Assembly (NCBI GenBank): GCA_011192015.1
Contig: DUET01000074.1
Span: forward strand, 96,875-160,874
Length of the DNA stretch: 64,000 nt
Source of the DNA: Anaerolineae bacterium
GTDB taxonomy: Bacteria; Chloroflexota; Anaerolineae; Anaerolineales; E44-bin32
Direction: 5' to 3'
Numbering within the stretch: position 1 is the first letter of the stretch; every line of letters begins with the position of its first letter. The notes beneath the pieces are model-generated. The model made no database searches. It saw nothing but the letters and a program-made list of their open reading frames with translations, and was not told where the DNA came from. Positions 45,317-64,000 of the stretch are shown one piece after another. Both the position numbers and the translations under genes were made by a program.

Positions 45317-46327
45317 TCATCCTGAATGGGATCCGTCAACGAGCCAACAGGAAACCCGATGATCCCCGTTCACAGAGATCAAACTTGGCTCCTCGATCGA
45401 ACAATGATGGACAGCAATGGGACAGCGTGTATGGAAACGGCAGCCCTGTGGGGGATCAAGGGCACTGGGCGTTTCCCCTGAAAGCAGAATGCGTTGATTC
45501 TTACTCCCTTGCGGCAACGCCGGTACTGCCGACAGCAGAGCTCGAGTGTAGGGATGCAGCGGATGGGAGAAGATGGTCTGCCGACGGGCTATTTCGACGA
45601 TCTTGCCAAGATACAGGACGGCCACCCGATCTGCCACATGCTCGATGACGCGCAGATCGTGCGCAATGAAAAGTAACGACAAACCCAACTCGGACTGCAG
45701 GTCACCGAGAAGATTGAGTATGGAAGCCTGGATCGAGGCATCCAGTGCCGATACGGGTTCATCTGCCACCACAAATCTTGGCTGCAATGCAAGCGCTCTT
45801 GCAATGCAAATACGTTGCTGCTGTCCGCTTGAGAATGCTCCCGGGTACCGATCGGCAAGATGTCGGTCGATGCCCACCTTGCGCAGCATTTCCAACGCCG
45901 TTTCCCGGTAGGCTCCGGGACTGTCCGGGCGATGGATGAACAAGCCTTCGGAAACGATGTCGACGACCCTCATGCGCGGATTGAGGGAAGCGTGGGGATT
46001 CTCGAAGATGATCTGCATCTCACGACGAATGTCCTTCGAAGCTTCTCGCCCGAGTGAAGCCATGTCGCGCCCATCGAATTGGATCGATCCCGATGTCGGT
46101 TTGATCAAATCGAGGATGCACAGGCCAATCGTTGTCTTACCGCTGCCGGATTCCCCGGCCAAACCAAGCGTCTCTCCCTCTCTGATGTCGAAACTCACGC
46201 CGTCCACGGCATGTTTCCAGCCCCGAACACGCCCCAACGGGCCCCCACGATAGGGGTAATGCTTCACGAGGTTTCTGACGACGACGAGGGATTTGAGATT
46301 CGGGATCTCATGCCATTCTTTGTTCAT
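45317..46327 (-). CDS. Oligopeptide ABC transporter ATP-binding protein (OppF/DppF type)
   Basis: Walker A GESGSGKT; FSSGQQQRICIARALALQPRFVVADEPVSALD; C-terminal CRFHTRCPIA oligopeptide signature. Confidence 0.94.
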   Translation of the reverse strand: MNKEWHEIPNLKSLVVVRNLVKHYPYRGGPLGRVRGWKHAVDGVSFDIREGETLGLAGESGSGKTTIGLCILDLIKPTSGSIQFDGRDMASLGREASKDIRREMQIIFENPHASLNPRMRVVDIVSEGLFIHRPDSPGAYRETALEMLRKVGIDRHLADRYPGAFSSGQQQRICIARALALQPRFVVADEPVSALDASIQASILNLLGDLQSELGLSLLFIAHDLRVIEHVADRVAVLYLGKIVEIARRQTIFSHPLHPYTRALLSAVPALPQGSKNQRILLSGETPSALDPPQGCRFHTRCPIAVHHCSIEEPSLISVNGDHRVSCWLVDGSHSG

Positions 46328-47439
46328 GCTTGGGAAACCGCGCCCTGTACGCCTGCTCCAATGGAACCCGATTGGGGTTCGCTCAGGGGAGGTCTATGGC
46401 GGCCATGTCCGTGATACAACCAGCATCGCACCAGGCGATCATCAACGACTGGTCTCAACGCAGGCGCATGCAGCTGACAGATTTCCAATCCGTAATCGAG
46501 GCGCGCCTGACAGCGCGGCGCGAATCGGCAGGCTGGGGGTAGATCGGCTGGGTTGGGAGCCGTTCCAGGAATCGTCTCGAGGTGTTCTCCCTTCCGGGGC
46601 ATGGAGGTTATCGCTGCCATCAATCCCACCGTGTAGGGATGAAGGGGCGTGGAAAACAGCGTATCGACATCGGTCTGCTCGACGATCTGCCCTGCATAGA
46701 TAACGGCTGCACGATCAGCCAATTCCGCCATCACACCCGGATCATGCGTGATCAGGAGAATCGCAGTACCCGTCCTCTGCTGAATCTCTCGAAGCAGATC
46801 GAGAATCTGCGCCTGGATGGTGACGTCCAAAGCGCCTGTAGGCTCATCTGCGATCAGAAGCCCCGGAGAGCCGGTAATGGCAAGCGCAATCCCAACCCTC
46901 TGAGCCTGGCCTCCGGACAATTCATGCGGAAAAGCCTGCGCCAGTTCCTCCGGATCGGGCAATCCCATCCTGTCGAGCAGAGCGACAGCTTCCTGCAATG
47001 CTGCATCCCTATCGTTGCGACGTTTCAATTGGATCGCTTCCACCATCTGGTTGCCCACGGTAAACACCGGATTGAGGCTCGTCTTGGCCTGCTGGAAGAT
47101 CATGGCTATTTTCTCAGTTCGCACGGCTTGCATCTGGGTTTCATCGAGGTCGAGCAGATTCACACCATCATAGAGCATGCGATCCGCATCCGTTCTTCCC
47201 GGGGGTGTGATAAGCCGCAGGAGGGAAAGTGCGGTCACAGTCTTTCCCGATCCCGATTCTCCGATCAGAGCGAAGATCTCCCCCCGCAGAATGCACAAAT
47301 CCAATCCATCCACCGCCTTCACGATTTGCCCATCGAGATGGAACCAGGTTCTCAAGCCCTGCACCTCGAGAATAGGCGATTGTTTACGGTTCTTTCTCGC
47401 GCTTGGGCGCTCGGATGGATTCTCCCTCTTTTTCATCAA
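46324..47439 (-). CDS. Oligopeptide ABC transporter ATP-binding protein (OppD/DppD type)
   Basis: GESGSGKT; MIFQQAKTSLNPVFTVG; LSGGQAQRVGIALAITGSPGLLIADEPTGALD; CRFAPRCQ. Confidence 0.94.
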   Translation of the reverse strand: MMKKRENPSERPSARKNRKQSPILEVQGLRTWFHLDGQIVKAVDGLDLCILRGEIFALIGESGSGKTVTALSLLRLITPPGRTDADRMLYDGVNLLDLDETQMQAVRTEKIAMIFQQAKTSLNPVFTVGNQMVEAIQLKRRNDRDAALQEAVALLDRMGLPDPEELAQAFPHELSGGQAQRVGIALAITGSPGLLIADEPTGALDVTIQAQILDLLREIQQRTGTAILLITHDPGVMAELADRAAVIYAGQIVEQTDVDTLFSTPLHPYTVGLMAAITSMPRKGEHLETIPGTAPNPADLPPACRFAPRCQARLDYGLEICQLHAPALRPVVDDRLVRCWLYHGHGRHRPPLSEPQSGSIGAGVQGAVSQA

Positions 47440-47735: not shown

Positions 47736-48689
47736 TTACGGTTCGGAAGCGGCTCCTGCGGGCACCGTGACCCTCGAGAGAACTTCTTCAAGCACTCGCT
47801 TCTCATCCAGATCGCGCAAATGGGCGCCAGGCGCGAGAATCAAACGATGGCCCAATACGGGAACAGCCAACTCTCTTGCGTCATCGGGAACGGAATAGTC
47901 TCTGCCCTCCAACGCAGCCCGTGCCTGGATGCTCCGATACAATCCCAGGCTGCCGCGGGGGCTGGCTCCCAGATACACATCCGGGTGATCACGCGTCTGT
48001 CGAACCAGATCCACAATGTATTCCTTCAGCGGGGTTGAGATATGGACCTTCTTGATCTCATTCTGCATCCGCAGGACTTCCTCCACGGAAGAGACGGATT
48101 CTAACTTATCGATGGGATGATTGTATTGCTGGCGATCCATGACATCGATTTCATTTTCCCGATCCGGGTATCCGAGCTTGATCCGCATTAGAAAGCGATC
48201 GAGCTGCGCTTCGGGAAGGGCGTAGGTGCCCTGGTATTCAATGGGATTCTCCGTGGCGATGACCATGAATACCGGAGAGAGAGGATAGGTGATGCCATCC
48301 ACCGTGACCTGCCGTTCCTGCATCGCCTCCAGCAACGCCGACTGAGTTTTCGGCGTGGCTCGATTGATTTCGTCGGCCAGAACGACTCCCGACATCACAG
48401 GCCCCGGGCGGAAGATGAATTCCTGCTTGGCTTGGTTGTAGATGGTAACTCCGGTGACATCGCTGGGGAGCATGTCCGGGGTGAATTGAATGCGTCCGAA
48501 AGAGCATCCCATCGATGTGGCGATGCTGCGTGCGAGCATCGTCTTTCCTAATCCTGGAACATCATCGATCAAGATGTGCCCCTGACAGAGCAAGCCAATC
48601 ACGGCCAATTCGACCGCTTCTCGCTTTCCGACGATCACGCTTTCGATGTTATGAATGATCTTTTCCGCAAATTCTTTGACAATGTCCAT
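47736..48689 (-). CDS. MoxR-family AAA+ ATPase (ORF extends to 48794)
   Basis: HILIDDVPGLGKTMLARSIATSMGCSFGRIQFTPDMLPSDVTG; LADEINRATPKTQSALLEAMQERQVTVDG. Confidence 0.95.
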   Translation of the reverse strand: MDIVKEFAEKIIHNIESVIVGKREAVELAVIGLLCQGHILIDDVPGLGKTMLARSIATSMGCSFGRIQFTPDMLPSDVTGVTIYNQAKQEFIFRPGPVMSGVVLADEINRATPKTQSALLEAMQERQVTVDGITYPLSPVFMVIATENPIEYQGTYALPEAQLDRFLMRIKLGYPDRENEIDVMDRQQYNHPIDKLESVSSVEEVLRMQNEIKKVHISTPLKEYIVDLVRQTRDHPDVYLGASPRGSLGLYRSIQARAALEGRDYSVPDDARELAVPVLGHRLILAPGAHLRDLDEKRVLEEVLSRVTVPAGAASEP

Positions 48690-48694
48690 ATTCT

Positions 48695-51600
48695 TTATCC
48701 ATCGATTTTGATGGTCGCTGGTGGCGGAACTTGCCAGATCAGCGACCAAAGGATCGGGGTCATTCTTGCACGCTTGAGCAACCACAGCAACCAAAGCCTG
48801 GAACGCAATCGCTTGTAAGCGCGCACAACTTCCTTGGTATCTACTTCAGCCCCTCCTCTAGGGCTGAAGACAAGCAGCACAATTGCCCTCACCAATACTT
48901 TCACGTCATTATTGGCCACCATAAGCCAATCGTTCCACCGGCTCGTTCGCCCCATGATCCGGCTGTATTGCGCATAGATAGAGGCAACATCAAATGGCGT
49001 ATGGAAAAGCTTCAATAGTATGCCTGCTTTTTTCGAAAGGCGGAGGAAGCGACCGTACGCTTTGGGTATGAGTTCTTCAGCAGAAAGGCGACTCAAGAAA
49101 TAGTCCGATAGATAGATGGCTGCAGCGAAACCACCAACCACGAGCACCAACCCAACGGTTATACCCACAGGCCAAACCCAATTTGAGATCTCAGGCTTCT
49201 CCTCGATCGGCTCCATATCGAGCGGCGTGCTGGCTGGGATCGTTGGTAGGGGTTCTGCCGGTCTTTCCAGTTCGGCACGCCCCGGCGTTGGCTCGAATGG
49301 TATCCATCCATAACCGGGGAAGTAGATTTCCGCCCACGCATGCGCCTGATCCTCGGTGACAAGATAGGCTCCGAGGGATTCGTCGTATTGTTCGGCAACA
49401 TGGCCTGTGATCAAACGGGCTGGAATCCCTGCCGCTCGGGAAAGAACGACCATGGCCGTGGCGAAGTAATCGCAATAGCCTTCTTCCAGCGTGAACAGGA
49501 AATATTGGGTGACATCCCGTCCTGCCGGCGCGAGTGACACGTCCAGCGAGTAATCCAATTCCCTGAGGTAACTCTCCAAGGCGATGGCACGATCGTAGGG
49601 TGTGGCTTCGATAGCCGTAAGATCACGCGCCAATGCCAGCACGTCATCAGGTACGGTCGGTGGAAGCGCCAAATATCGATCTATGATCCAATCGGGATAG
49701 GATCGCCTGGCGGATCGCAGCTCTGTCTCACTGTACAACGGCATGATCGAGTCGACGCGATAGGCCGTCGCTGAAATCATGGCGCCAAACAGGTCGAAAG
49801 CATCCATCCCCTCATCAACCGTTCTCCAGGCGGCTGTGGTGACTTGATCTGTGCGTATGGGTACCCCGACGGCATGCAGTAATCCCTCGTATCCCTCCAC
49901 GATGTCCAGGCTCTGACGAACGACATGGTAATTCTCCGGCCAAGTAAGCAGCAGCATCTGCCCGGCGCGATATTCGGAGAATCCCGCATACTCCGAAGCC
50001 CAACCCTGCCCCGTGTAGCGATCGTAGCTCAGACTGCGTATATAAATCCGTTCCGGTGGAATTGCACCCTCAACAGTCAAATCCAGACCCGGCCAGACCC
50101 CAAGTTTGATCGTCATAACAAGTTGTTCGGAAAGCTCCGGTCCGGACCCGAGCAGATGTTTGTTCGGGAGCGTCTCCGTATTGAGGGCATCCAGGGAACT
50201 TCGATGCTCCATGCGCGAACCAAATCCCAGGGAATCGCTAATCTCGGTACTATCCTGCTCGATATTCAGAGCGTTTTGAATGGCCTCTCGAATGCTGCTG
50301 AGGGAAATCGAGGGACTTACAATGGAAACCACCATCAATCCAGCTGCCAAGGCGCATCCGGCTATCGCCACGCGCGGACTGATCGAATCTTCAAAGAGCA
50401 GAAGGCCTTGTTCCCATTCGTGCTCATGCTCTTCATAGCGCACGAATACCCTTTGGAGGATCATCGCTCCCAGCATAAATGCAAGAATAAAACCGGGCTG
50501 ATCGGTGATCCCAGAGCTGATCGCCACGAGTAAAAAGGCTGGCGCTCCCGCTAAAACCGGATTCCTCTGCTTCACCACACCATACAGCGCCCAACCCGTA
50601 GCGAACCAAGCCGTGATACCCCACAGGATGACCACAACCACCGGATCAAAATACGCCTCGCCCTGGACCACCCCCGCCAGCCATTCCCACAGACGGGCTC
50701 CAAGCAAGCCCATTTTTTCCCCCAGCAACGCGAAGGAAGCTTGCAATGCTTCGGTTTCCGGGCCCGCGCTATCACTCACCAACGCACGCAAACCAACTTG
50801 GATATAGGTTACGATTTGAGACCCGATATCGCTCAACAGAACTTCCAGCCGACCAACCCGGATCATCGAGAGAATGATCCCGAAAATCCCGCTCAACACG
50901 CCCATGATCCATGGAGGCATGGTGAAGAGCAACAGTAGTCCGTTGATCAGCACTCCACCGCCGGTCATGAACCAAAGGAAACTATCATCCACTCCTTGAA
51001 TTGCATCTCCGAGCGTGCTTGCCATTCCCCACAGCAGCAGGGAGACCAATCCAATCGTGCGCAGATACCGGAGCCCCTTCTTCCACACGCTTCCGCGTCG
51101 CTCGCGGGTGGTTTTCTCCTGAACTTTCGGAAACAATAACCAATCCCACGGTTTTTCCTCAGGTTCTTCAGGCTGATCGAGGATGTCAGCGGTGATGATG
51201 TAATGGGTGATGCCCAAACGGATGAGCTGGTCCCGAATGGAACCTGTGCTCTCTGAGCTTCCGAATGTCGATGGATCCAGAAGGACGATTGTGGGGATGA
51301 CGCCGGATTGTCGTAGGATTTCAAGCGTCTCAAGCCACTCGGAGGACATGTTCGCGGTGATGATCACCAAGCTCACTTGCCGCTCCACAGACTCGCGAAT
51401 GCTCTCCAGTAGTTCCTTCAAACGAACCTGTCCGGGTCGCGCGGTTGCTAAAGATCGTAGGATCTTCCATAGGTGGGCATCGCCCACTGCGGGAGTATGC
51501 CAGAGAAACTCTTCCCCGTGGCCGATGAACCCGATGGCCTTACCCATCTGGTTGTAATGATTCACCAGGGATGCGGCCAGGATGATCCCATACTCCTCCG

Positions 51601-52369
51601 TGTTCCGCTGACCCTCACCGATTTGAACTTCCGCATCCAAATCCAAGACCAACCAAGCATCGCTGGATGGTTCGCTATCGAAGATCTGGACATAGGGTTC
51701 GTTTCTTCGAGCAGTGGTCGGCCAATGAATCCAACGCAAACTATCGCCATGCGTATAACTACGGACTCCTCCAGCAGCTACGGTCTGCTCCAAACCCTGC
51801 GCACGCGTTCTCCCTTCTCCAGCGCGACCGCCAGCAGCAATCTCGATTTGGGGCAGATCGATCACCTGAGGGGCCACCATCATGGTCGTGGTTTCGGGAT
51901 ATTCGACACGCACGCGATACATGCCCAGGGGATCCGAGGCTTCAAGGATGGTGGGGCCCATCGTGTACAAACCCCGGCGCGTGCACTTCCCACGGCTGAA
52001 CCAATGGCGATATCGACCCTTGCTGAAATCTCGAACACTGCTGATGCCATAGTCGTGCATGTCCGATTGGTCGATGATCCGGACCCACAATCCCGGTACC
52101 CAGCCGTCGTTGGCGATGATGACTCGTTCCTGTAATTGATCACCAACGCTCATCCAGCCAAAGCGCATTTCGCGTTCCAACCGCAAGCCGTCTTTCAAGG
52201 AGCGCGCCCAGAGATAGCTGACCAACCACGCGCCACCCAGGCCTGTGAATAAAATCATCCATCCTTTGTGAGGAAAGAAGAGTTGCACGAGCAGGACGAT
52301 CAACGCCATCACCGCTATGCCGCGGGACTCGAGCTGGAGGGTCCGGATGGGCTTTTCAAAACCCGACAT
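48695..52369 (-). CDS. Fused DUF58 / multi-TM / transglutaminase-like / DUF4129-type protein (ORF extends to 52519)
   Basis: DUF58 region YTHGDSLRWIHWPTTARRNEPYVQIFDSEPSSDAWLVLDLD; TM block; transglutaminase core EEGYCDYFATAMVVLSRAAGIPARLITGHV...DQAHAWAEIYFPGYGWIPFEPTPGRAE; C-terminal TM + DUF4129-like segment. Confidence 0.9.
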   Translation of the reverse strand: MSGFEKPIRTLQLESRGIAVMALIVLLVQLFFPHKGWMILFTGLGGAWLVSYLWARSLKDGLRLEREMRFGWMSVGDQLQERVIIANDGWVPGLWVRIIDQSDMHDYGISSVRDFSKGRYRHWFSRGKCTRRGLYTMGPTILEASDPLGMYRVRVEYPETTTMMVAPQVIDLPQIEIAAGGRAGEGRTRAQGLEQTVAAGGVRSYTHGDSLRWIHWPTTARRNEPYVQIFDSEPSSDAWLVLDLDAEVQIGEGQRNTEEYGIILAASLVNHYNQMGKAIGFIGHGEEFLWHTPAVGDAHLWKILRSLATARPGQVRLKELLESIRESVERQVSLVIITANMSSEWLETLEILRQSGVIPTIVLLDPSTFGSSESTGSIRDQLIRLGITHYIITADILDQPEEPEEKPWDWLLFPKVQEKTTRERRGSVWKKGLRYLRTIGLVSLLLWGMASTLGDAIQGVDDSFLWFMTGGGVLINGLLLLFTMPPWIMGVLSGIFGIILSMIRVGRLEVLLSDIGSQIVTYIQVGLRALVSDSAGPETEALQASFALLGEKMGLLGARLWEWLAGVVQGEAYFDPVVVVILWGITAWFATGWALYGVVKQRNPVLAGAPAFLLVAISSGITDQPGFILAFMLGAMILQRVFVRYEEHEHEWEQGLLLFEDSISPRVAIAGCALAAGLMVVSIVSPSISLSSIREAIQNALNIEQDSTEISDSLGFGSRMEHRSSLDALNTETLPNKHLLGSGPELSEQLVMTIKLGVWPGLDLTVEGAIPPERIYIRSLSYDRYTGQGWASEYAGFSEYRAGQMLLLTWPENYHVVRQSLDIVEGYEGLLHAVGVPIRTDQVTTAAWRTVDEGMDAFDLFGAMISATAYRVDSIMPLYSETELRSARRSYPDWIIDRYLALPPTVPDDVLALARDLTAIEATPYDRAIALESYLRELDYSLDVSLAPAGRDVTQYFLFTLEEGYCDYFATAMVVLSRAAGIPARLITGHVAEQYDESLGAYLVTEDQAHAWAEIYFPGYGWIPFEPTPGRAELERPAEPLPTIPASTPLDMEPIEEKPEISNWVWPVGITVGLVLVVGGFAAAIYLSDYFLSRLSAEELIPKAYGRFLRLSKKAGILLKLFHTPFDVASIYAQYSRIMGRTSRWNDWLMVANNDVKVLVRAIVLLVFSPRGGAEVDTKEVVRAYKRLRSRLWLLWLLKRARMTPILWSLIWQVPPPATIKIDG

Positions 52370-52671
52370 GACATTACCTACGGCCAACCGCACGAGAGAT
52401 TTAGGACAGTTCTCAATGCTATCCTGGAGCGACGAATGCCCGATGGCGGTATGTGCTGCTTTGATGATGGTATCGTAGCATCGATGGCTGTTGCTAATCA
52501 GCCCCGATGATCCTTGCATGGGCCAATATCGCCGGGACTATCCAATGCGTTAATCATGCTGGATCCGCTGCCGAAGGGAATCTAACGGCAACAAATCATG
52601 GAACAAATTGATTGTCGCGCACATCGCAAGCATGATACCAAACCTGGCGGCCTGCTTCGATGATCTGAGTG

Positions 52672-55371
52672 TCATTCCTCCCGCAATCTTGGATTGAGGA
52701 CTCGATCCAAGGCGTAACCGATCAACGCAAAGGCAAATCCGGTCATCAGGAGCAGGGCGATGGGGCCCAGCACATAGTAGCGCGATCCCCAACTGGCGCC
52801 CTGATTCAGAGCTTGGTAGATCACTCGGCCCCAGGTTGGATACATGGATTTGATGTTGAACATGCCCAGGGTTGCCTCGAGAAAGACAAAGGCGGGGACC
52901 AGGGTCACCAATTGCGGAATGAGCACGGGGATGATGCGCGGCATCATGTAGCGCAGGATGATGCGCCAATTGCTGACACCATAAGCTTGCGCAGCCTCGA
53001 TATAGGGAGCTTCTTTGATCTGCAGGAAGGCTGCGCGGAAGGATTTCGTTGGACTGCCGAAAACATTCAAGATGACGATAATCCCCAGGATGGTCCAGAT
53101 ATTGACGTTGAAGACGGCATAGAACAGGACCCCCAGGGCGAGGATAGGCAGGATCATGTTGGCCTCGGTGATACGCTGGATGAGGGCATCCAACCACCCC
53201 CCGAACCATGCACCAGCCGCGGCGAGTACCATCGAGGCCACTGTCGTCAAGACAGCTCCGAAGAGCCCGATCGCCAGGGCAAACGGCATGCCCCACAGCA
53301 GCGGAACCAGCAGGTCGCGGCGCATGAAGTCGGTCCCCGCCATACCATACACCTGTCCCAGAATTACCAACTCTGCATCCAGATCCGCATCATCTTCAAA
53401 CAGCAATCCCTCGATTCGCAGCTCGTAGGTCCCCTTGAGAGGAGCCGTGGAGTCAGAATTCGGATCCAGAAACAGCTCCGATAAATCAGGGTCGCCTCTC
53501 CCGATGGGATCTTGTTCATCCCATACGTCCAACGCAAAGGGCGATACCTCGGCATGTCCTGGCGTATGCTCGGCTAGATCGATGCGCGATCCCGCTGCGA
53601 CGGACATCTGTTTCAGCTCGATCTCGCGTCCATCAGGCGTGATCCAGGTCATGAAAACAAAAGGTCTCTTGAGTTCAAACTGCGGGGTGAAATCAATCAG
53701 CAGTTCCTCAGGCATGGCTGCATAGGAATAATCGAACGAGAAGGTGATGAACACACTCGAAGTCTCATTCGAACCTGGTTCGATGGTTTTCTCAACACCG
53801 TCGTCATGTTCGGTGAGCACAACCGTTGAAAGAAGGGTATCCTTTCGAAACCAATTGATCCATTCTGGTTGTGCAAGTTTCGGAGCGTAATACTTCCCGG
53901 TCAATCCTTCTGTGTACCAGCGTTCACCCACCTCCAGATAAGGAAGTTCAACTACAGCATAGATCGAGCCCCCGACAAGCAAGGCGATGATAGCCAATCC
54001 CACGATGGCTGAGGGATAACTGAACAACTCCCCCATCGTCTTCATCGAAGCCCGCCATCTGGCTTTGAAGAACTCCCAATTGGAGCTCGTGGGAAGCGTT
54101 GCACGTTGCTTTGGCAGAGGCCTGCGTTTCATGCGAGGCGGCGCAATGCTCGTTGGCGATCGCCTCTTCATCCACCATTTCCTGAGGCTGGAAAGCCACG
54201 ATGTCCTCTGGACAATTCGCAATGCTGAATCCTGCTTCTGCATCCTGATGCGGGGATCGACGATGGCATAGATCAAATCCAGAAGAAGTACCGTAAAACC
54301 CAGGATGTAAGCAAAGACGACCACGATGGCGATGACGATCACCATCTCTCCGGGGAACATCTGCTCGCTCCAGAAGTTGGGGAGGGATAGGATGTAGAGG
54401 TTCCCGATACCCGGCCAACCGAAAACGATCTCCAGGGCTGTGGTCATTTGCCAGAAGGAAACCAAAGTCAGCGCAAAGCTTGTGATCACATAGGGCAACG
54501 CTGGTTTCAAGACGTGACTGCGATTGATCGTCTTTTGGGGCAAACCAATCGCCTGAGCAAGTTCAACATAATCCTCGCGGGCATAGATCAGGAAGAATGT
54601 ACGCCATGTATAGACGAGTTGGAAAAGCAGGCTGATGACGATGGCCGATACCGGCAGGAGCATATGCTTGATTACAGCAAGTACGTAACCGATCTTCGTT
54701 TCCGGGGGAAACGGATCGTACATGCCTCCGAAGGGAAGCAGGCGTAATTCCAGTGCGAAGATGAAGATCAGCAAGAGGCCGAGAACCCAACTGGGAATGG
54801 ATGAAAATGGTGCCAAAAGGGAAAGTAATTTGTCCTGCCATTGCCCATGCTTTCGGGAAAGAGAAAGCGCAAGAGGGATTCCGATCATGAAGATCAGGAG
54901 GTACGCCGATCCCACCAGGAGCAAAGTGTTCGGAAGATGCTGGAAGATGATGGATTTTACATCATCATAATCCTGCCGCATGGCTCGTGCACCAGGTGCA
55001 GAAGAGAGGTTGAGGAAGCGTATACTTCCCCAATTGAGCGTCAGAGCATTGAACGTCCAGCGGATATGCCGCGGCCAGAATGGAAGGGACAATCCTGTTT
55101 CATCCGCCATATTGTTATAGACGAGCATGACGACTTGTTGCAGACACTCCGAGTCAGCACCCACGAGTCCATAAGACGTCCATCGTGCTTCCTCGATGAT
55201 TCTTGCCTCGACATTCTGATCGATCTGCCCTCCTGAGTTGGCCAGCAGAACGGCGCCGAACGTCCCCAAAATAATGGTGACGAGGATCATTCCGGCCCTT
55301 AAAAGGACGAACCGAATAACGCTTCGCGCAGTGCTGGAATCTTGATCTTGAGACTGGAATGCAGATCCCAT
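52672..55371 (-). CDS. Fused DppB-DppC peptide ABC transporter permease with extracytoplasmic insertion in the DppC half
   Basis: 899 aa; DppB-like half ending LLDLIYAIVDPRIRMQKQ; ~70 aa basic linker; DppC-like half with EAPYIEAAQAYGVSNWRIILRYMMPRIIPVLIPQL. Confidence 0.93.
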   Translation of the reverse strand: MGSAFQSQDQDSSTARSVIRFVLLRAGMILVTIILGTFGAVLLANSGGQIDQNVEARIIEEARWTSYGLVGADSECLQQVVMLVYNNMADETGLSLPFWPRHIRWTFNALTLNWGSIRFLNLSSAPGARAMRQDYDDVKSIIFQHLPNTLLLVGSAYLLIFMIGIPLALSLSRKHGQWQDKLLSLLAPFSSIPSWVLGLLLIFIFALELRLLPFGGMYDPFPPETKIGYVLAVIKHMLLPVSAIVISLLFQLVYTWRTFFLIYAREDYVELAQAIGLPQKTINRSHVLKPALPYVITSFALTLVSFWQMTTALEIVFGWPGIGNLYILSLPNFWSEQMFPGEMVIVIAIVVVFAYILGFTVLLLDLIYAIVDPRIRMQKQDSALRIVQRTSWLSSLRKWWMKRRSPTSIAPPRMKRRPLPKQRATLPTSSNWEFFKARWRASMKTMGELFSYPSAIVGLAIIALLVGGSIYAVVELPYLEVGERWYTEGLTGKYYAPKLAQPEWINWFRKDTLLSTVVLTEHDDGVEKTIEPGSNETSSVFITFSFDYSYAAMPEELLIDFTPQFELKRPFVFMTWITPDGREIELKQMSVAAGSRIDLAEHTPGHAEVSPFALDVWDEQDPIGRGDPDLSELFLDPNSDSTAPLKGTYELRIEGLLFEDDADLDAELVILGQVYGMAGTDFMRRDLLVPLLWGMPFALAIGLFGAVLTTVASMVLAAAGAWFGGWLDALIQRITEANMILPILALGVLFYAVFNVNIWTILGIIVILNVFGSPTKSFRAAFLQIKEAPYIEAAQAYGVSNWRIILRYMMPRIIPVLIPQLVTLVPAFVFLEATLGMFNIKSMYPTWGRVIYQALNQGASWGSRYYVLGPIALLLMTGFAFALIGYALDRVLNPRLREE

Positions 55372-55733: not shown

Positions 55734-56468
55734 TTATTGGGCTTCAATCCGTATCAGGTAAACCGTAGAGATGGTCAATGCAAGCAGAAGGGTGAGCACC
55801 AGGATGATTCCCCCGAACATCCAGTTGCCCGTCATGCCAACAATGGTGCCGGCGATGATGCAAACCGCCAGGCCTGCCATATTTGCGAAGGCTCCCAATG
55901 CCCTGGCCCTCAAGGGGCGATTCAAAAGCACCCACAGAACCACACCTACAAACATGCAGACGAGTGCTATGGTGGCCAGGGAGAAGAAGATCTGATTCCC
56001 CGTGAGGAGGGTTGTTTTCACATACAGAACCCCGCAGGCTCCTTCGCTGGCAGGGAAATCATATCGAGGGAAGCGACGGATTTTTACGAGGATCAATCGT
56101 TCGAAGGCAACATCGTCTGGCGTTATGGTCCAATAGATGGCGCCGGTTTCGCCTGCTTCCAAGGGCAAGGCCGTGTTGTCCTCCGTGATCAGCGTTGCGC
56201 TTCCCTGACTGATGTAAGTTCGGAACCTGAAATCAATAGCGCGATTGGAAGTGTTTGTTAACGTTACGGATACTCTGCTGGTCTCCTTGTCGGTGATGAT
56301 GATCGGGCAAGCCAGATTCTTGAGGGGCGCATCGAAGCGATAGGTTGCGCCGAAGCGCATGGCTTCAAAATCCCCCACGATCGTGATTCCTTCCAGGGCT
56401 ATGCCGATCACTGCACCAATAATGAAGAGTAGGATTGCCAACGCTCGAGTTACATTCTTCCCCATCAT
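55734..56468 (-). CDS. Membrane protein with N-terminal TM, extracytoplasmic beta-like domain and C-terminal TMs; unknown function
   Basis: ALAILLFIIGAVIGIALEG TM; ITDKETSRVSVTLTNTSNRAIDFRFRTYIS beta-like domain; three further hydrophobic segments. Confidence 0.7.
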   Translation of the reverse strand: MMGKNVTRALAILLFIIGAVIGIALEGITIVGDFEAMRFGATYRFDAPLKNLACPIIITDKETSRVSVTLTNTSNRAIDFRFRTYISQGSATLITEDNTALPLEAGETGAIYWTITPDDVAFERLILVKIRRFPRYDFPASEGACGVLYVKTTLLTGNQIFFSLATIALVCMFVGVVLWVLLNRPLRARALGAFANMAGLAVCIIAGTIVGMTGNWMFGGIILVLTLLLALTISTVYLIRIEAQ

Positions 56469-56701: not shown

Positions 56702-56932
56702 TTATTGTCTGTCGTTGTCCGCCTTCTTTCGAAGATAGATATCCAGGGCTCCATAAAGTCCAAGGAGCAGACCAACCACCGAGGCGCCGTAGGAGGCAAA
56801 ACCCAAGAGGAAGCCCGGGTTGATGAGCCTGATGACCATCAGCAATGGAACCACAAAACCGATGAGCACCAGCACGAACCCAATGAGTATGAAACGGAAG
56901 GCTCGCGTGGTTATCACTGGTACAACCAACAC
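56702..56932 (-). CDS. Small membrane protein (76 aa), unknown function
   Basis: FRFILIGFVLVLIGFVVPLLMVIRLINPGFLLGFASYGASVVGLLLGLYGALDIYLRKK; overlaps the 3' end of the upstream ABC ATPase gene by 19 nt. Confidence 0.65.
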   Translation of the reverse strand: MLVVPVITTRAFRFILIGFVLVLIGFVVPLLMVIRLINPGFLLGFASYGASVVGLLLGLYGALDIYLRKKADNDRQ

Positions 56933-57912
56933 GCGACCTGGTGGCCGGGAACGGGTTCGAAATCCGGAGGTTCCTTCACTTCACACAATCCCTCGATGAG
57001 CTTGGGACATCGCGGGTGGAAGCGGCAGCCAGGTGGAGGTTCGATCAAGCTCGGCGGCTCTCCAGGAGGAACGTCCTTCATGATAAGCGCATTTTCAGCA
57101 TCCGGATCCGAAGTCGCAGCCAGCAGGGCTTCGGTGTAGGGATGCATGAAGTTGTTCAGCAGTTCATCCACGGTTGCTTTTTCAACCAGTTTGGCCGCGT
57201 ACATGACGAAGATGCGCTCCGAGAAGTATCGCACTGTGGAGAGATCGTGGGTGACGTAGATCACCGCAAGGTGGTGAGAATCCTGCAATCCTCGTAACAG
57301 TTTGAGAATCTCAACCCGCACGGAGGCATCCAGCATGGATACTGGTTCGTCGGCGACGATGAGCTTGGGTTCGAGAATCATCGAGCGCGCAATCACGATA
57401 CGCTGCTGCTGCCCCCCGCTGAGCATGTGCGGAAACTTGGGCAGGAACTCCTCCACAGGCTCCATCTTGACCTCTTTCATCACATCGTGGATGCGCTGCT
57501 TGCGGACGTTCCTATCCCTGACGCCATTGACGATCAGCGGTTCTTCCAGCGTGCGGTTTACGTTCATGAAGGGTGCCAGTGCACCATACGGATCCTGCTG
57601 AACAAAACCTACCATGGCGCGATAATCCCTTGTTTCACGCCTGCCTTTGTCGCTCAGATCCTGACCTTGAAACCAGATAGAGCCATCCGTGGGAGTATTG
57701 AGCCCCAGGATGGTCTTCATCAAGGTGGTCTTTCCACATCCGCTCTCGCCGACGATGCCGATCGCCTCACCTGCCTCGAGAGTAAAGTTCACACCATCGA
57801 CAGCGCGTACGTATCCTGCGCGTCCGAATCCCCAGCGACGCAGTTCAAACCAAACGCGCAAATCCTCAACCTTCAGTAGTTTTCCATTCATGCTGCTTGT
57901 GTCCATGGACAT
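56914..57912 (-). CDS. Oligopeptide ABC transporter ATP-binding protein (OppF/DppF type)
   Basis: GESGCGKTTLMKTILGL; LSGGQQQRIVIARSMILEPKLIVADEPVSMLDASVR; CRFHPRCPKLIEG. Confidence 0.94.
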   Translation of the reverse strand: MSMDTSSMNGKLLKVEDLRVWFELRRWGFGRAGYVRAVDGVNFTLEAGEAIGIVGESGCGKTTLMKTILGLNTPTDGSIWFQGQDLSDKGRRETRDYRAMVGFVQQDPYGALAPFMNVNRTLEEPLIVNGVRDRNVRKQRIHDVMKEVKMEPVEEFLPKFPHMLSGGQQQRIVIARSMILEPKLIVADEPVSMLDASVRVEILKLLRGLQDSHHLAVIYVTHDLSTVRYFSERIFVMYAAKLVEKATVDELLNNFMHPYTEALLAATSDPDAENALIMKDVPPGEPPSLIEPPPGCRFHPRCPKLIEGLCEVKEPPDFEPVPGHQVACWLYQ

Positions 57913-57927
57913 GCTATGCTCCTCGCT

Positions 57928-58884
57928 TCACGCATACAGCCAGCATTTGACGCTGCGTCTACCTGTGGTCAGCATCGGGGGATCTTGATCGCACTGGTCA
58001 AAGCGCTTCGGGCACCGCGGTGCGAAACGACAACCCTCGCCAAGACCGATCAGGCTTGGCGGCTTTCCACTGATGAACTCCGGTTCCTCGTCCCCTCGCA
58101 ACCTGGGCACGCTTGCCAGCAGCTTCTGTGCATAGGGATGGCGGGGGTTGGCGAAGAAATGCGAAGCGTCGTCAACTTCCACGATCTGCCCGGCGTACAT
58201 CACAGCGACGCGATTGGCCAGTTCGCTGGAGGTGGCGATATCATGCGTGATCAGGATGTAGCTGATCTCCATCTCCTGCTTGATGCGTTTGAGCAGGTTG
58301 AAGATGTTGGCCTGTGTGAGAACATCCAGCGCGGATGTGGGCTCATCCAGAATGACCAGGCTGGGCACGGTTGTGAGCGCCATGGCAATAGCGATGCGCT
58401 GCCGCATGCCGCCACTGAGCTCGAAGGCATAGCGGTTCAAGAATCCCAGTGGGACTCCCACGCGCTGAAACATGGTGCTTGCCTGTTCCAGCGCATCCTG
58501 CTTCTTGGCAGCAAAGTGCACCATCATGGGTTCAGCCACTTGATCACCAACACGCAGTACCGGATTCAAAGCATTCATGGCCGCTTGGGGCACCATGGAC
58601 ATCTTCACCCAGCGAACCTGTCGCCGGAATTCCTCATCACTGAGCGTCATCACGTCCGTGTCCCCCAGGTGAACCTTACCTTCGTATTTCGCCACATTGC
58701 GTGGAAGAAGACGCAGAATCGCTCTTGCCAAGGAGGTTTTCCCGCATCCGGATTCACCGAGAATCACGATGGCTTCCGTGCGGTTGAGTTCCAAGTCGAC
58801 ATGATCGACTGCCTGAACATCTCCATGTGTAGTGCGGAAGTAGAGATTCAGGTCTTCAACGCGGAGTAGGCTTGCATCTGTCAT
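57928..58884 (-). CDS. Oligopeptide ABC transporter ATP-binding protein (OppD/DppD type)
   Basis: GESGCGKTSLARAILRLLP; LSGGMRQRIAIAMALTTVPSLVILDEPTSALD; CRFAPRCPKRFDQC. Confidence 0.94.
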   Translation of the reverse strand: MTDASLLRVEDLNLYFRTTHGDVQAVDHVDLELNRTEAIVILGESGCGKTSLARAILRLLPRNVAKYEGKVHLGDTDVMTLSDEEFRRQVRWVKMSMVPQAAMNALNPVLRVGDQVAEPMMVHFAAKKQDALEQASTMFQRVGVPLGFLNRYAFELSGGMRQRIAIAMALTTVPSLVILDEPTSALDVLTQANIFNLLKRIKQEMEISYILITHDIATSSELANRVAVMYAGQIVEVDDASHFFANPRHPYAQKLLASVPRLRGDEEPEFISGKPPSLIGLGEGCRFAPRCPKRFDQCDQDPPMLTTGRRSVKCWLYA

Positions 58885-58888
58885 CGGA

Positions 58889-60238
58889 TTAAAGGCCTCG
58901 CAATTTAGGGTTGAAAATTCGATCCAGAGAGAAGCCCACCAACGAGAAGCCGATTCCCGTCAGAGTCAGCAGGATCGCGGGTTCAAGCATCCAGTAATAG
59001 TAACCGTTGTAGACGGCTGCGTTACCCCATGCATCGTAGATGATCTTTCCCCATGTTGGCAGAACAGGATCACCCAAGCCCAGAACCGCAAGGGTCGCCT
59101 CCAGGAAAACGAACGTGGGAACCGAGAGGATCAGGGCGGGAATCAGGACGGGGATGAGGCGCGGGAGGAGATAGCGCATGACGATGCGCACATCACTGGC
59201 TCCGTAGGCCTGCGCGGCCTCGATGTAGGGCGCTTCCTTGACCTGCAGGAACATGGCGCGATAGGTCTTGATCGCTGCGCCGAAGATGATCAAGAGGATG
59301 GTAACGCCCAGAATGACCCACAAGCTTTTCGAGTAGAACGTTCCCACCATGATGAGGATCGACAGGAATGGAAGCGTCAAGTTGACCTCGGTGATGCGCT
59401 GGATGATCCCATCCACAACGCCTCCAAACCACACGCCGAAGGCGGCGATGATGATCGTCGATACGGAGGAGCCGACAGCTCCCACGAGACCGAACGCCAA
59501 CGCAATGGGTGCCCCCCAGAGCAGCGATACCATCAGATCGCGGCGGCGGTGATCCGTTCCCGCCAAACCGTAGACCTCCCCATGCAGGACGAATTCGGCA
59601 TCGATGGTTGAGTTCTCCTCGAAGGTCAGCACCTTGAGCTCGACCTGATACTCCCCTTTCAGCGGAACGGGGTCTTCGGGATCCGAATCCGGATCCTGGA
59701 ACAGCGCAATGCGGGCAGCATTGTTACCCAGTCTGCGGGTCAGCCTCTCATCCTGGGAGAAGCGATAGGATTCCTGCCGGCTGACGCCCATGTCTACGAT
59801 GCGGAACTCGCGTCCATCCGGTGTGGTCCAATAGACAGACACGAATGGTTCATTCTCCACATATTCGGACGTGAAGAAAAACGCCAACTCCTGTGGGAAT
59901 TCATCATAGGGGTAGTCAAAGTGGAATGTATACGTGAGATCACTGAAACCCGCAGAGGTTTCCTTGGTTTCCAGGTCCACTGATTCATCCGTGTTGAGGA
60001 TGGCGATCGATTCTGGAAGTTGATCTGACCGGAAGAGATTCACCCACTTCGGCAGGGCATTGCGAGGATTCATATACCAAACATCAGGGCCACCTCGCCA
60101 AAGCCTGAGGGCCTCATCGTAGGGGATGGAAACAATCGCGTAGACCGCCAGCGCGATCACGCCAAGCAGCACCAGAGATCCCATGACCGCCGATGGATAT
60201 CGCAGTAGGTCCTTTAGGGAAGCCTTGATGGATTGCAT
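58889..60238 (-). CDS. Peptide ABC transporter permease, DppC type, with extracytoplasmic insertion
   Basis: GTDHRRRDLMVSLLWGAPIALAFGLVG; EAPYIEAAQAYGASDVRIVMRYLLPRLIPVLIPAL; large insert between TM1 and TM2. Confidence 0.94.
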   Translation of the reverse strand: MQSIKASLKDLLRYPSAVMGSLVLLGVIALAVYAIVSIPYDEALRLWRGGPDVWYMNPRNALPKWVNLFRSDQLPESIAILNTDESVDLETKETSAGFSDLTYTFHFDYPYDEFPQELAFFFTSEYVENEPFVSVYWTTPDGREFRIVDMGVSRQESYRFSQDERLTRRLGNNAARIALFQDPDSDPEDPVPLKGEYQVELKVLTFEENSTIDAEFVLHGEVYGLAGTDHRRRDLMVSLLWGAPIALAFGLVGAVGSSVSTIIIAAFGVWFGGVVDGIIQRITEVNLTLPFLSILIMVGTFYSKSLWVILGVTILLIIFGAAIKTYRAMFLQVKEAPYIEAAQAYGASDVRIVMRYLLPRLIPVLIPALILSVPTFVFLEATLAVLGLGDPVLPTWGKIIYDAWGNAAVYNGYYYWMLEPAILLTLTGIGFSLVGFSLDRIFNPKLRGL

Positions 60239-60241
60239 AGT

Positions 60242-61375
60242 TTAACTACTCCCAGCGCCGATTTTCACTCGAGGATCAACCAGCGCGTAAACGAAATCGA
60301 GCAGAAACACGGTCAGTACGAGCATGTAGGCATAGATGATCGTCAATCCGACGATGACCGCCGTGTCGTACAAACCGATTGCGGTGTAGTAAGTACGCCC
60401 CAAACCCGGCCAAATGAAAACCGTCTCCAGGATGATCGACCCCGTCCAGAGAGCGATCAGGGTGAGGCTGAAGTTGGTGATGATCGTCGGGAGGGTCGGC
60501 CGCAGGATATAACGTCGCTCGATGGCACGATCCGAGAGGCCCTTGGCCTTTGCCATGTCGACGTAATCCTCGCTGGAATACACCAGGAAGAACGTTCGCC
60601 AGTTGTAGATTCCCAGAAAGATGTTTGCAATCACGATTGCGGAAACCGGAAGAATGGCGTGTTTGAGTACGGAAAGCGTGTACCCAAGCTTCGTTTCCGG
60701 TGGTGGCGAATCCACCATGCCATTGAAGGGAAGGATGCGCAGCACCGCCGCGAAAATGAGAATCAGGAAGATGCCATAGAACCACGATGGTGCTGAGGAT
60801 GAGGGAGATAGGGCGATAACGAGCCTGTCCAGGAAGCTTCCGTATTTCCTCGATAGGGCAAGCGCAGCGAACACGCTGCCGAAGAAGAGAATGAAATTCG
60901 CGACTCCCATGATCAGCAGAGTCGGCCCCAGGCGTTCCTGGATGATCAGCCTGACCTCCCGCGAGCCCTCGTCGCTCGTCATGAGTTGGGCGCGTCCTAA
61001 ATCGAGCACCATGGCTTTGAAGAGAAATCGGAAACTGCGGATCACGAACGGCTGATCCAAGCCCAATCGGCTTTCCTCAAGCGTAACCTGCTCCGCGATC
61101 CAAGCAGCTCTAACGGACGGATCCAAGGTTTTGAAATTGGGATCGTTCTGGATCACCAATGCGATGTTCTCACGAATCTGCCCGCGTATGATGCTGTCCA
61201 CATAGCCGCCCATGTTGGCGATCAAGATGGTCAGGTAGACACCAACGACAACGGTTAGGATGAGGATGACAAAGCGAACACCGGTATATTTCGCCACTCT
61301 CGTAAGCGTGCCTACGAGCGGGTTCTGCTCAGGAACGTCCCCACCTGCTTGAAGTGCGTGAGCTTCCGAACTCAT
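60242..61375 (-). CDS. Peptide ABC transporter permease, DppB type
   Basis: YNWRTFFLVYSSEDYVDMAKAKGLSDRAIERRYILRPTLPTIITNFSLTLIALWTGSIILETVFIWPGLG; ends LLDFVYALVDPRVKIG. Confidence 0.94.
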   Translation of the reverse strand: MSSEAHALQAGGDVPEQNPLVGTLTRVAKYTGVRFVILILTVVVGVYLTILIANMGGYVDSIIRGQIRENIALVIQNDPNFKTLDPSVRAAWIAEQVTLEESRLGLDQPFVIRSFRFLFKAMVLDLGRAQLMTSDEGSREVRLIIQERLGPTLLIMGVANFILFFGSVFAALALSRKYGSFLDRLVIALSPSSSAPSWFYGIFLILIFAAVLRILPFNGMVDSPPPETKLGYTLSVLKHAILPVSAIVIANIFLGIYNWRTFFLVYSSEDYVDMAKAKGLSDRAIERRYILRPTLPTIITNFSLTLIALWTGSIILETVFIWPGLGRTYYTAIGLYDTAVIVGLTIIYAYMLVLTVFLLDFVYALVDPRVKIGAGSS

Positions 61376-61477: not shown

Positions 61478-64000
61478 CTACTCGGTCACGAACTCGAGCG
61501 AGGAGATCGTAGGAATGCTGACGGGGATCGCAACAACCGCAACTTCGATCTTGTTGGATCCTGCTGCCAGCGCACCTGTCGTTTCTGCGCTCAAGGTGAA
61601 CTCGAAGACGCCGCCACCCAGCGCTGTGGCATCCACCACTTCGACGATCGCACCCGTGGCATCGTAGAGGATGTACTTCACGGTGGCGATCTCATCGTCG
61701 GGATAGGGCTCATCAGCGTAGGTTACGTAGATGGTGTAGGTGACTGCTTCACCGATGGTCACCCGTCCGGGGCCATCCAGCTCGACAACCGCCAGCTTCG
61801 GCTCGGCGAATCCAGACCACTTGCTCGACAGATCGACGTAGTTCTCGTAGTGCTTGAGCGTGGCGGTCTTCTCAACCAAGAGTACCTGGTCGAGGTAGTA
61901 CGGACCCGTGCCGACCCAGAAGTGACCGTGGTCTGCGTACCAGGCCTGGAGGTTGGCGTAGCGCGTTGCAGCCTCGTCGGCCGTGATGTAGGCACCAAGC
62001 GTCGGTTCGTAGGGGATGTAGGTATCAGCAGCAGCCTGATCCAGATAACCGCTCAGGATCTCCAGGCTGGGGCCGCCGATCCAGCTCATCCAGTCCACTT
62101 CCAACGCATCCGACTTGTCGGACGAGTACGCCAGCGCTTCACCAGCTTCGGCGAGGTTGGCCACAGCCATCATAGCCCAGGAGCTGTTGCCGTAGCCATA
62201 CTCAGGCCAGAACTGCGTGCGGAAAGGAACCGCGCACTGTTCGGCATCCAGGTAGTACGTGTCGCTGTAGAGCTCGATGCTCAGCGGATCTTCTGACAGG
62301 ATGCGCCATCCTTTGAACGTGGACTGGAAGGATGCAAGCGTGCCAGCGTACGATTCGTCATAAATCGCGCTGTCCTCTTTACCCCAGTCGAACGTAAAGA
62401 TCATGGCCATGACGAAGTCACCGATGCTCATTGCGCTTCCATCATGCCAGAAGACGGTGTCGAACAGGTCGGCTGGGTAGTTGATGATCACGTGACGCTT
62501 GGCGGTGAGGCCTTCGGGATACAGATCACCAACCGTGATGAAGGTCTGCGCCACGGGATCCCAATCGATCCAGACATCCGCCGGCACGTCGATCTGCGGC
62601 AAGAAGCTCAGATCCACCCAGTCATAGGTCTTGCCAACAGGCAGGCCTTCCTGGATCTCCACCGAGGCGCTCTCAATGCGCTGAGGCAGAGTGAGGCCAG
62701 TGTGAGGATTGGGGATCGCGTCCCAGTCGTTGGTCGCAATCTGCCACTGGGAGTCGTAGGTCCAGTTGCTGCCTGCGGGCGGGTTCGGGGGGTCAACGAA
62801 CAGGTCGGGCGTACCCCACCTGACGATGCCGCCCTCGAACGCATCGTAGCGCAGCGTATGCGGCCAGAGTGTGTTGATGTCGACGCCTGCGGACAAGTCG
62901 TAGGCTACATCCAGGGAGGGGTGCCACGTGCTCGCACCACGACCGTCCACCACCCAAACCTTGTAGGAGTGGTTGAAGGTTTCAGCCAAGCAGATCTCGA
63001 ACAAGTCTCTGCGTTCGTCAAGAGTCGAGAAGGTGTTGTTGGCCAGCGCTTCGGAGCAATCAAAGAACTCATCTGAGAGCTCGTAGGCCTGCCACAGCGG
63101 GCTGAACCCGTAGCCACTGTTGGGTGAGTAGAAGAACTGGAAGTCGCCACCATCATCGCGCGCGACTGCGCCGGAGCCCCAGGCGCCGGTGTACAGGTGC
63201 CATAGGCCGTCATTGGGATCACCCAGGATCCACAGCGGCGATGCCTCGGATGAGGTCTTGTACTGGCGATCTACTGCGAAGCCAACCGCTTCAAGCTGAT
63301 TGGCAACGTAGTCGCCAATGGGGATGCGGGTGCCGTCGGAGTCATTGCGGATGAGGAAGATCAGCTCGATGACTTCGCCTTCGTAAGTCCACATGTCATC
63401 AGCATTCTTCACCGCACCCATGGCTTCCAGTTCCGTGGTGAACACGGCATCTGCCTTCTCGAAGTCATATGCATACTTGGCTTCGAGGGGGCGGATCAAG
63501 TCGATGTAGCGTGCGTAGTCCGGGAAGCCCGACACCAAGCTGAAGAACTTCGGAATGGCCGTTCCACCGTAGATCTCCTGATCGATGTAGTCTCGATCAA
63601 TCAGCCAGTTTAGAGCCTCGCGGATATTCGCACTGTAGAAGGGGTTGAATCCACCGGTTCCATCAAACACAGGACCCACGGGGTTAAGGGTGATGTCGTA
63701 GTAGAGACCGAACTGGTAGGATCGCTCCAGACCAGCCGCTTCAATGGCCTCGAAGTCCTGCGGTGTGGAAAGGTTGGAAGCATAGAGGTCGACAGCGCCA
63801 GCATCGATCTGCGTCACGGCGGTGTCAGACCCAACGACGGACATAGCGACCGTATCCAGCCAGCCGCCCCGGCGTGTCGACACTGGGGCCTCAGGCTCAA
63901 CTGGCACCTCAACGGTCACTACCTCTCCTGGCACCTCAACTTCCACGGTGACTGTGGGGCCTGCACAAGAGCCCAACGTCAGGGCCAGCACAGTCAATCC
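61478..64000 (-). CDS. Peptide-type ABC transporter substrate-binding lipoprotein (SBP_bac_5-like), 5' end beyond the window
   Basis: At least 839 aa; lipobox-like TLGSCAGP near the window edge; NIREALNWLIDRDYIDQEIYGG; position directly upstream of dppB/dppC/dppD/dppF. Confidence 0.88.
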   Translation of the reverse strand, partial: GLTVLALTLGSCAGPTVTVEVEVPGEVVTVEVPVEPEAPVSTRRGGWLDTVAMSVVGSDTAVTQIDAGAVDLYASNLSTPQDFEAIEAAGLERSYQFGLYYDITLNPVGPVFDGTGGFNPFYSANIREALNWLIDRDYIDQEIYGGTAIPKFFSLVSGFPDYARYIDLIRPLEAKYAYDFEKADAVFTTELEAMGAVKNADDMWTYEGEVIELIFLIRNDSDGTRIPIGDYVANQLEAVGFAVDRQYKTSSEASPLWILGDPNDGLWHLYTGAWGSGAVARDDGGDFQFFYSPNSGYGFSPLWQAYELSDEFFDCSEALANNTFSTLDERRDLFEICLAETFNHSYKVWVVDGRGASTWHPSLDVAYDLSAGVDINTLWPHTLRYDAFEGGIVRWGTPDLFVDPPNPPAGSNWTYDSQWQIATNDWDAIPNPHTGLTLPQRIESASVEIQEGLPVGKTYDWVDLSFLPQIDVPADVWIDWDPVAQTFITVGDLYPEGLTAKRHVIINYPADLFDTVFWHDGSAMSIGDFVMAMIFTFDWGKEDSAIYDESYAGTLASFQSTFKGWRILSEDPLSIELYSDTYYLDAEQCAVPFRTQFWPEYGYGNSSWAMMAVANLAEAGEALAYSSDKSDALEVDWMSWIGGPSLEILSGYLDQAAADTYIPYEPTLGAYITADEAATRYANLQAWYADHGHFWVGTGPYYLDQVLLVEKTATLKHYENYVDLSSKWSGFAEPKLAVVELDGPGRVTIGEAVTYTIYVTYADEPYPDDEIATVKYILYDATGAIVEVVDATALGGGVFEFTLSAETTGALAAGSNKIEVAVVAIPVSIPTISSLEFVTE

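Follow-up and report, generated by a model that had tools for sequence, protein, structure and literature searches.

The ABC importers of the Opp/Dpp/Nik class, such as DppBCDF and OppBCDF of E. coli and DppABCD and OppABCD of M. tuberculosis, have the transmembrane domain (TMD) fold, the BPD_transp_1 domain, oligo_HPY ATPases, a family-5 solute-binding protein (SBP) and a helical TM1-TM2 region in DppB in common with the locus described here. In E. coli Dpp, a scoop of DppB inserts into the cleft of the SBP (PMC12136057). For the pneumococcal peptide importer Ami, AlphaFold-Multimer models put the DppB-type subunit's ECD1 into the cleft and its ECD2 on Lobe 1, with the TM1-TM2 coil of the DppC-type subunit (AmiD 64-99) resting on Lobe 2 (PMC11192437). 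The P2 domain of the maltose permease MalF (residues 91-271) directly contacts its SBP (PMC3150292), and a circularly permuted, membrane-tethered SBP of an ABC importer has been described in TpMglB-2, a glucose-binding lipoprotein of cluster B (PMC4990184).

The DNA analysed here (the window) is a stretch of 64,000 nucleotides on contig DUET01000074.1 of an Anaerolineae bacterium, in which importer genes stand in the order SBP-B-C*-N-N-x-BC*-(DUF58/transglutaminase, MoxR)-N-N (Table 1; B, DppB; C*, DppC with an extracytoplasmic domain (ECD); BC*, their fusion; N, ATPase). Class assignment was clear from two BPD_transp_1 stretches in the fused protein (P0001) and one each in the separate DppC (P0002) and P0003, the oligo_HPY C-terminal region of the Dpp-type ATPases, an SBP_bac_5 match in the SBP and EAA motifs in both halves of the fusion. 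The one class feature lacking is a short TM1-TM2 loop in DppC. The locus thus differs from the described members of the class in a DppC β-sandwich of ~190 aa between TM1 and TM2, a permuted SBP and a paralogous DppBC fused into a single chain. Across the loci retrieved, ECD operons nearly always have the order SBP(~870 aa)-DppB-DppC*-ATPase-ATPase. Many carry four Dpp-type ATPase genes and not two (for example L047, L048, L053 and L059), sometimes followed by an ECD-less DppB-DppC pair (L065, L093 and L118), and relatives of the 244-aa membrane protein adjoin other ECD operons (L056 and L081).

Table 1. Features of the importer locus, in coordinates of the window.
Feature	Position	Strand	Remarks
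Second DppD/DppF-type ATPase pair	45317..47439	-	45317-46327 and 46324-47439; downstream of fused permease
MoxR ATPase and DUF58/transglutaminase membrane protein	47736-52519	-	between fused permease and second ATPase pair
Fused DppB-DppC permease	52672..55371	-	899 aa; TMD and EAA coupling motif in each half
ECD of fused DppBC, DppC half	53338..53964	-	aa 470-678, TM1 to GTDFMRRDL; BLASTP and homologues
Conserved β-hairpin MTWITPDGRE, fused DppBC	53623..53652	-	aa 574-583; each TPDGR residue kept in 92 or more of the 104 rows
Membrane protein, 244 aa, without known family	55734..56468	-	between operon and fused permease
DppF-type ATPase	56914..57912	-	ABC_tran and oligo_HPY
DppD-type ATPase	57928..58884	-	ABC_tran and oligo_HPY
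Separate DppC with ECD	58889..60238	-	449 aa
ECD of separate DppC	59561..60145	-	aa 32-226; BLASTP; ECD-only AlphaFold2 model
Same hairpin, VYWTTPDGRE, separate DppC	59807..59836	-	aa 135-144; BLASTP and conservation
DppB	60242..61375	-	377 aa; long TM1-TM2 (scoop-type) region
Circularly permuted family-5 (cluster C) solute-binding lipoprotein	61478..64000	-	5' end lost at contig end
SBP Ig-like tail	61478-61786	-	weak FlgD_ig match, under Pfam cutoff
SBP C-half	61787-62818	-	matches 7fi3_A in swapped order
SBP N-half	62819-63874	-	matches 7fi3_A in swapped order

Both DppC units of the window, the separate protein and the second half of the fusion, contain an extracytoplasmic insert of ~190-200 aa between TM1 and the GTDxxRRDL motif, the boundaries being taken as the end of TM1 and that motif. 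The original prediction, made from the letters of the DNA alone, had claimed a homologous insert in both proteins. The peptides quoted in its favour were located from aa 545 onward in the fused protein and from aa 105 onward in the separate DppC, and BLASTP aligned the two ECDs over their full length with 69/211 identities (33%, E=3e-35), bearing out the homology. The proposed interval for the fused protein, 53355-53931, indeed holds the insert, the actual span of which is slightly wider at its limits. Solved OppC/DppC chains match the separate DppC only from about the GTD motif on. By topology, the ECD is predicted to lie outside the membrane, given the K/R residues N-terminal to TM1, the cytoplasmic EAA motif and the positive-inside rule. 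In the 136 ECD-bearing DppCs of the fetched loci, the distance from TM1 to GTD is 182-216 aa (median 189), as against a median of 50 aa in the 13 ECD-less DppCs of the same loci. The expectation that ordinary DppC proteins have a short loop therefore held for ten of these 13 (22-55 aa) and failed for the other three, whose loops are long (102, 139 and 289 aa) and unrelated to the ECD. The 139-aa insert belongs to a DppC of the window's own genome (L001, G000:C89) and the 289-aa insert to locus L052; given such unrelated inserts, DppC proteins may often carry extracytoplasmic domains of independent origin.

The ECD was predicted with confidence to be a folded domain. An ECD-only AlphaFold2 model of the separate DppC, built with 104 homologues, gave a mean pLDDT of 93.4 and a pTM of 0.86, in which short basal helices are followed by a β-sandwich that comprises about nine strands and further short helices. 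Modelling of the full fused DppBC (115 rows) gave a pLDDT of 89.1 and a pTM of 0.87, with the ECD mostly well predicted (pLDDT mostly >90). Nine positions are invariant in the 104 ECD rows (P2, P26, P78, P103, G158, Y160, F169, G183 and G187), and both the TPDGR hairpin (Table 1) and the membrane-side base of the domain beside TM1 and TM2 are strongly conserved (IPYxEAIRLWRGGE, PPxWxNxF and GxVYGxAGTD). The insert is thus neither predicted to be disordered nor unconserved, and the suggestion that it is a functional domain stands to the extent that it is well folded and kept across homologues. An enzymatic role was rejected, as the invariant residues are Pro, Gly and aromatic residues of structural character and no catalytic set is present.

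No known family or described DppC loop domain accounts for the ECD. Neither window protein gave a Pfam match to the ECD at E<=1, no credible sequence match was found in the PDB, and profiles from 18 and 104 homologues searched against the PDB, Pfam and NCBIfam returned no credible match to it; a lone marginal glycanase match had a best E of 0.016 and involved 4 of the 104 rows. A Foldseek search of the ECD against the PDB returned 17 matches at E<=0.001, mostly jelly-roll or β-sandwich proteins, with low TM-scores of about 0.24-0.45 (0.24-0.41, query-normalised, for the matches at E<=0.001). These included the prodomains of BMP9 and BMP10 (TGF-β), carbohydrate-binding modules (CBMs), the Eph ligand-binding domain and phage tail spikes. 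The full fused model matched OppB, OppC, DppB and DppC chains best (8z21, 8z1v, 8j5q and 8wd9) and also returned the same weak β-sandwich matches. On these models, the fold class of the ECD appears to be a common one with no close relative among solved structures. Membership of a CBM family was rejected on the TM-scores of 0.25-0.45 and on the lack of any CBM family match of the 104-row profile in Pfam. The P2 domain of MalF inserts between TM3 and TM4; membership of the ECD in that family was likewise rejected, the insertion site being different and MalF being absent among the 50 Foldseek matches listed. We found no literature on an extracellular domain of DppC, and the ECD is apparently a real, conserved domain that has so far gone undescribed.

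The SBP of the window also departs from the known pattern. Residues 47-290 match positions 148-361 of the SBP_bac_5 profile, too early for the normal order, and the match is just as early in family members whose N-termini are intact. The closest solved relative of both halves is 7fi3, an archaeal oligopeptide-type SBP that we take to be a T. kodakarensis protein (E 3e-31 and 4e-19). When the family alignment was split, the N-half aligned with residues 324-585 of 7fi3_A and with residues 213-467 of AppA, and the C-half with residues 63-307 of 7fi3_A. Since the halves thus match in swapped order, whereas 7fi3 itself has the canonical one, the Chloroflexota SBP is circularly permuted. The N-half corresponds for the most part to domain III/lobe 2 of cluster C SBPs. 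A literature search for a permuted family-5 SBP found none; the permuted TpMglB-2 likewise is membrane-tethered and serves an ABC importer, but it belongs to cluster B, unlike the cluster C, family-5 protein of the window (PMC4990184).

Permuted SBP and ECD go together with few exceptions. In 80 of 93 ECD operons an SBP gene was in range, the other 13 lying mostly at contig edges. Both SBP halves were readable in 77 operons, and all 77 were permuted with none canonical (0/77); the remaining three of the 80 had a single half, in short open frames. Among 400 genomes sampled across Chloroflexota, the ECD was detected in 38, the SBP C-half in 37 and both in 36, counts that are not independent because operon-mates are partly co-inherited; a search with a fragment of 7fi3 recovered nearly the same set of genomes. 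Of the genomes in which the scan detected one partner alone, the SBP-only one (G519) has a weak ECD-bearing DppC beside two permuted SBPs, and an ECD-only one (G483) has an SBP present at the locus, leaving a single exception (G346) with an ECD and no detectable SBP nearby. The ECD-less DppCs found in ECD loci have another DppB partner and no permuted SBP directly ahead. This pairing is the most interesting part of the analysis and, like the family-wide permutation, was absent from the original prediction.

A distance-matrix (mirror-tree) analysis covering 59-66 operons shows that the ECD evolves at the rate of the SBP and not at that of its own permease core (mean distances of 0.87 for the ECD, 0.83 for the SBP N-half and 0.30 for the core). 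Partial correlations of the ECD were 0.27-0.32 with the SBP N-half (5-95% of subsamples, 0.19-0.36), as against 0.08-0.12 for the C-half and 0.10-0.21 for the permease core of the same protein; computed on ranks, the values for N-half and core were equal at 0.25 each. ECD distances therefore follow the SBP N-half at least as closely as the ECD's own core, although the correlations are modest and could stem from shared fast rates alone.

The ECD is kept in hundreds of loci. It was present in 12 of 61 relatives and in 104 of 251 genomes sampled from the host's order. When each GTDB species was represented by a single genome, the scan gave 216 matching stretches, and 171 of them were confirmed. 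The 80 best loci come mainly from Anaerolineae, with a few from Bacillota, Trueperaceae and other MAG contigs. Those outliers beyond Chloroflexota that could be placed are nested within the Chloroflexota tree, which suggests transfer or mis-binning, and further Chloroflexota families hold a remote ECD branch (E 1e-7 to 1e-14). The permease cores of ECD-bearing DppCs form one clade to the exclusion of the seven ECD-less cores included (SH-aLRT 100). This clade divides into one group of separate DppCs (support 88) and a remainder that consists of the fused proteins. As the separate and the fused lineages both fall in this clade, the ECD is older than their split and was kept in both. The window genome (G000) encodes one separate ECD-bearing DppC and two fused DppBCs, with ECD copies on two contigs of ordinary GC content (0.56-0.58). 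None of the 26 other genomes examined from its family has the ECD (0/26); horizontal gain or mis-binned contigs are possible in the window genome.

Fused homologues form a family of about two dozen. Both halves of the window protein retain EAA coupling motifs, read in the sequence as EDYVELAQAIGLP and EAPYIEAAQAYGV, and the second fused paralogue of the genome (L184, G000:C70:16031-18232) is 65% identical to it in the ECD. Fused genes mostly stand alone, distant from SBP and ATPase genes; one locus (L189) has the order SBP-B-C*-N-N-BC*-N-N, the layout of the window without its spacer. On the simplest reading, the fused DppBC would be a second permease that shares the SBP and is served by the second ATPase pair. 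With its ECD retained, it is probably supplied with substrate by that SBP or one like it.

We consider it likely, with a probability of about 0.65, that the ECD serves as the platform on which the permuted SBP of this lineage docks and is clamped, a reading that rests on the pairing of ECD and permuted SBP, on ECD distances that track the SBP N-half, and on the precedents of MalF P2 and Ami. The contact itself, and the lobe concerned, we infer from the same observations: one SBP lobe would dock on the ECD of DppC, and the usual scoop in the SBP cleft would be provided by the helical TM1-TM2 region of DppB. Ami is likewise a peptide importer with enlarged extracellular domains that are proposed to clamp the SBP, its ECD2 forming a platform for one lobe (PMC11192437). 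However, the big domain of Ami lies in the DppB-type subunit (AmiC 31-278), and that of the present family in the TM1-TM2 connection of the DppC-type subunit, the subunit turned towards Lobe 2 in the model of Ami. The P2 domain of MalF is a periplasmic domain of similar size within the TMD of a type I importer and contacts the SBP (PMC3150292), but it occupies another loop of a CUT1 permease and has no sequence match to the ECD, which follows TM1 of DppC. Of the two roles named in the original prediction, docking platform or gate, the former thus gains indirect support, from the SBP-type pairing, the distance tracking and the MalF-P2 and Ami precedents, and the latter gains no specific support. 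More tentatively, and with somewhat less than even odds, the permutation of the SBP and the ECD may belong together as mutually dependent changes in a distinct subclass of type I peptide importers, in which the swap moved the lipid anchor and the docking face of the SBP and the ECD provides the surface to match.

A purely structural role, in which the ECD would be a stabilising scaffold for the outward face or for the pairing of DppB with DppC and would not specifically dock the SBP, would agree with the many highly conserved residues at the base of the ECD beside TM1 and TM2 and with its retention in the single-chain DppBC. Yet a pairing device would be expected to relax in a fusion that enforces pairing, and the ECD is kept there; it is also linked to one SBP type, changes at the rate of the SBP and follows that protein's N-half no less closely than its own core, and we regard this explanation as unlikely. 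Binding of a ligand other than the SBP, for example the substrate, a cell-wall glycan or another envelope component, is brought to mind by the loose CBM matches from Foldseek (2xom, 1gmm, 6r31 and 7zvo), but at TM-scores of 0.25-0.45, with unrelated jelly-rolls listed alongside, only the fold class is in common; with structural conserved residues and no convincing CBM family match in Pfam or NCBIfam, such binding appears less probable still. Finally, a single old gain would be enough to explain the one clade of ECD-bearing cores, and unrelated long loops do occur in other DppCs, as would be expected of a lineage-specific insertion that was simply inherited and does little or nothing. Every sampled member of two old paralogous lineages has retained the ECD, however, and it reaches, with invariant positions, into remote Chloroflexota families at E 1e-7 to 1e-14, which makes this reading very improbable.

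The importer is of the known Opp/Dpp class, within which the ECD and the permuted SBP set apart a distinct lineage, a variant apparently undescribed so far. Existing profile libraries miss the ECD and recognise the SBP only by half. In the single-chain DppBC, structural studies have a ready-made heterodimer, and the family as a whole is a test case for the joint evolution of SBP topology, anchoring and docking. With a new docking domain and a naturally permuted SBP, these peptide importers would make up a subclass of their own, recognisable as such and common in Anaerolineae.
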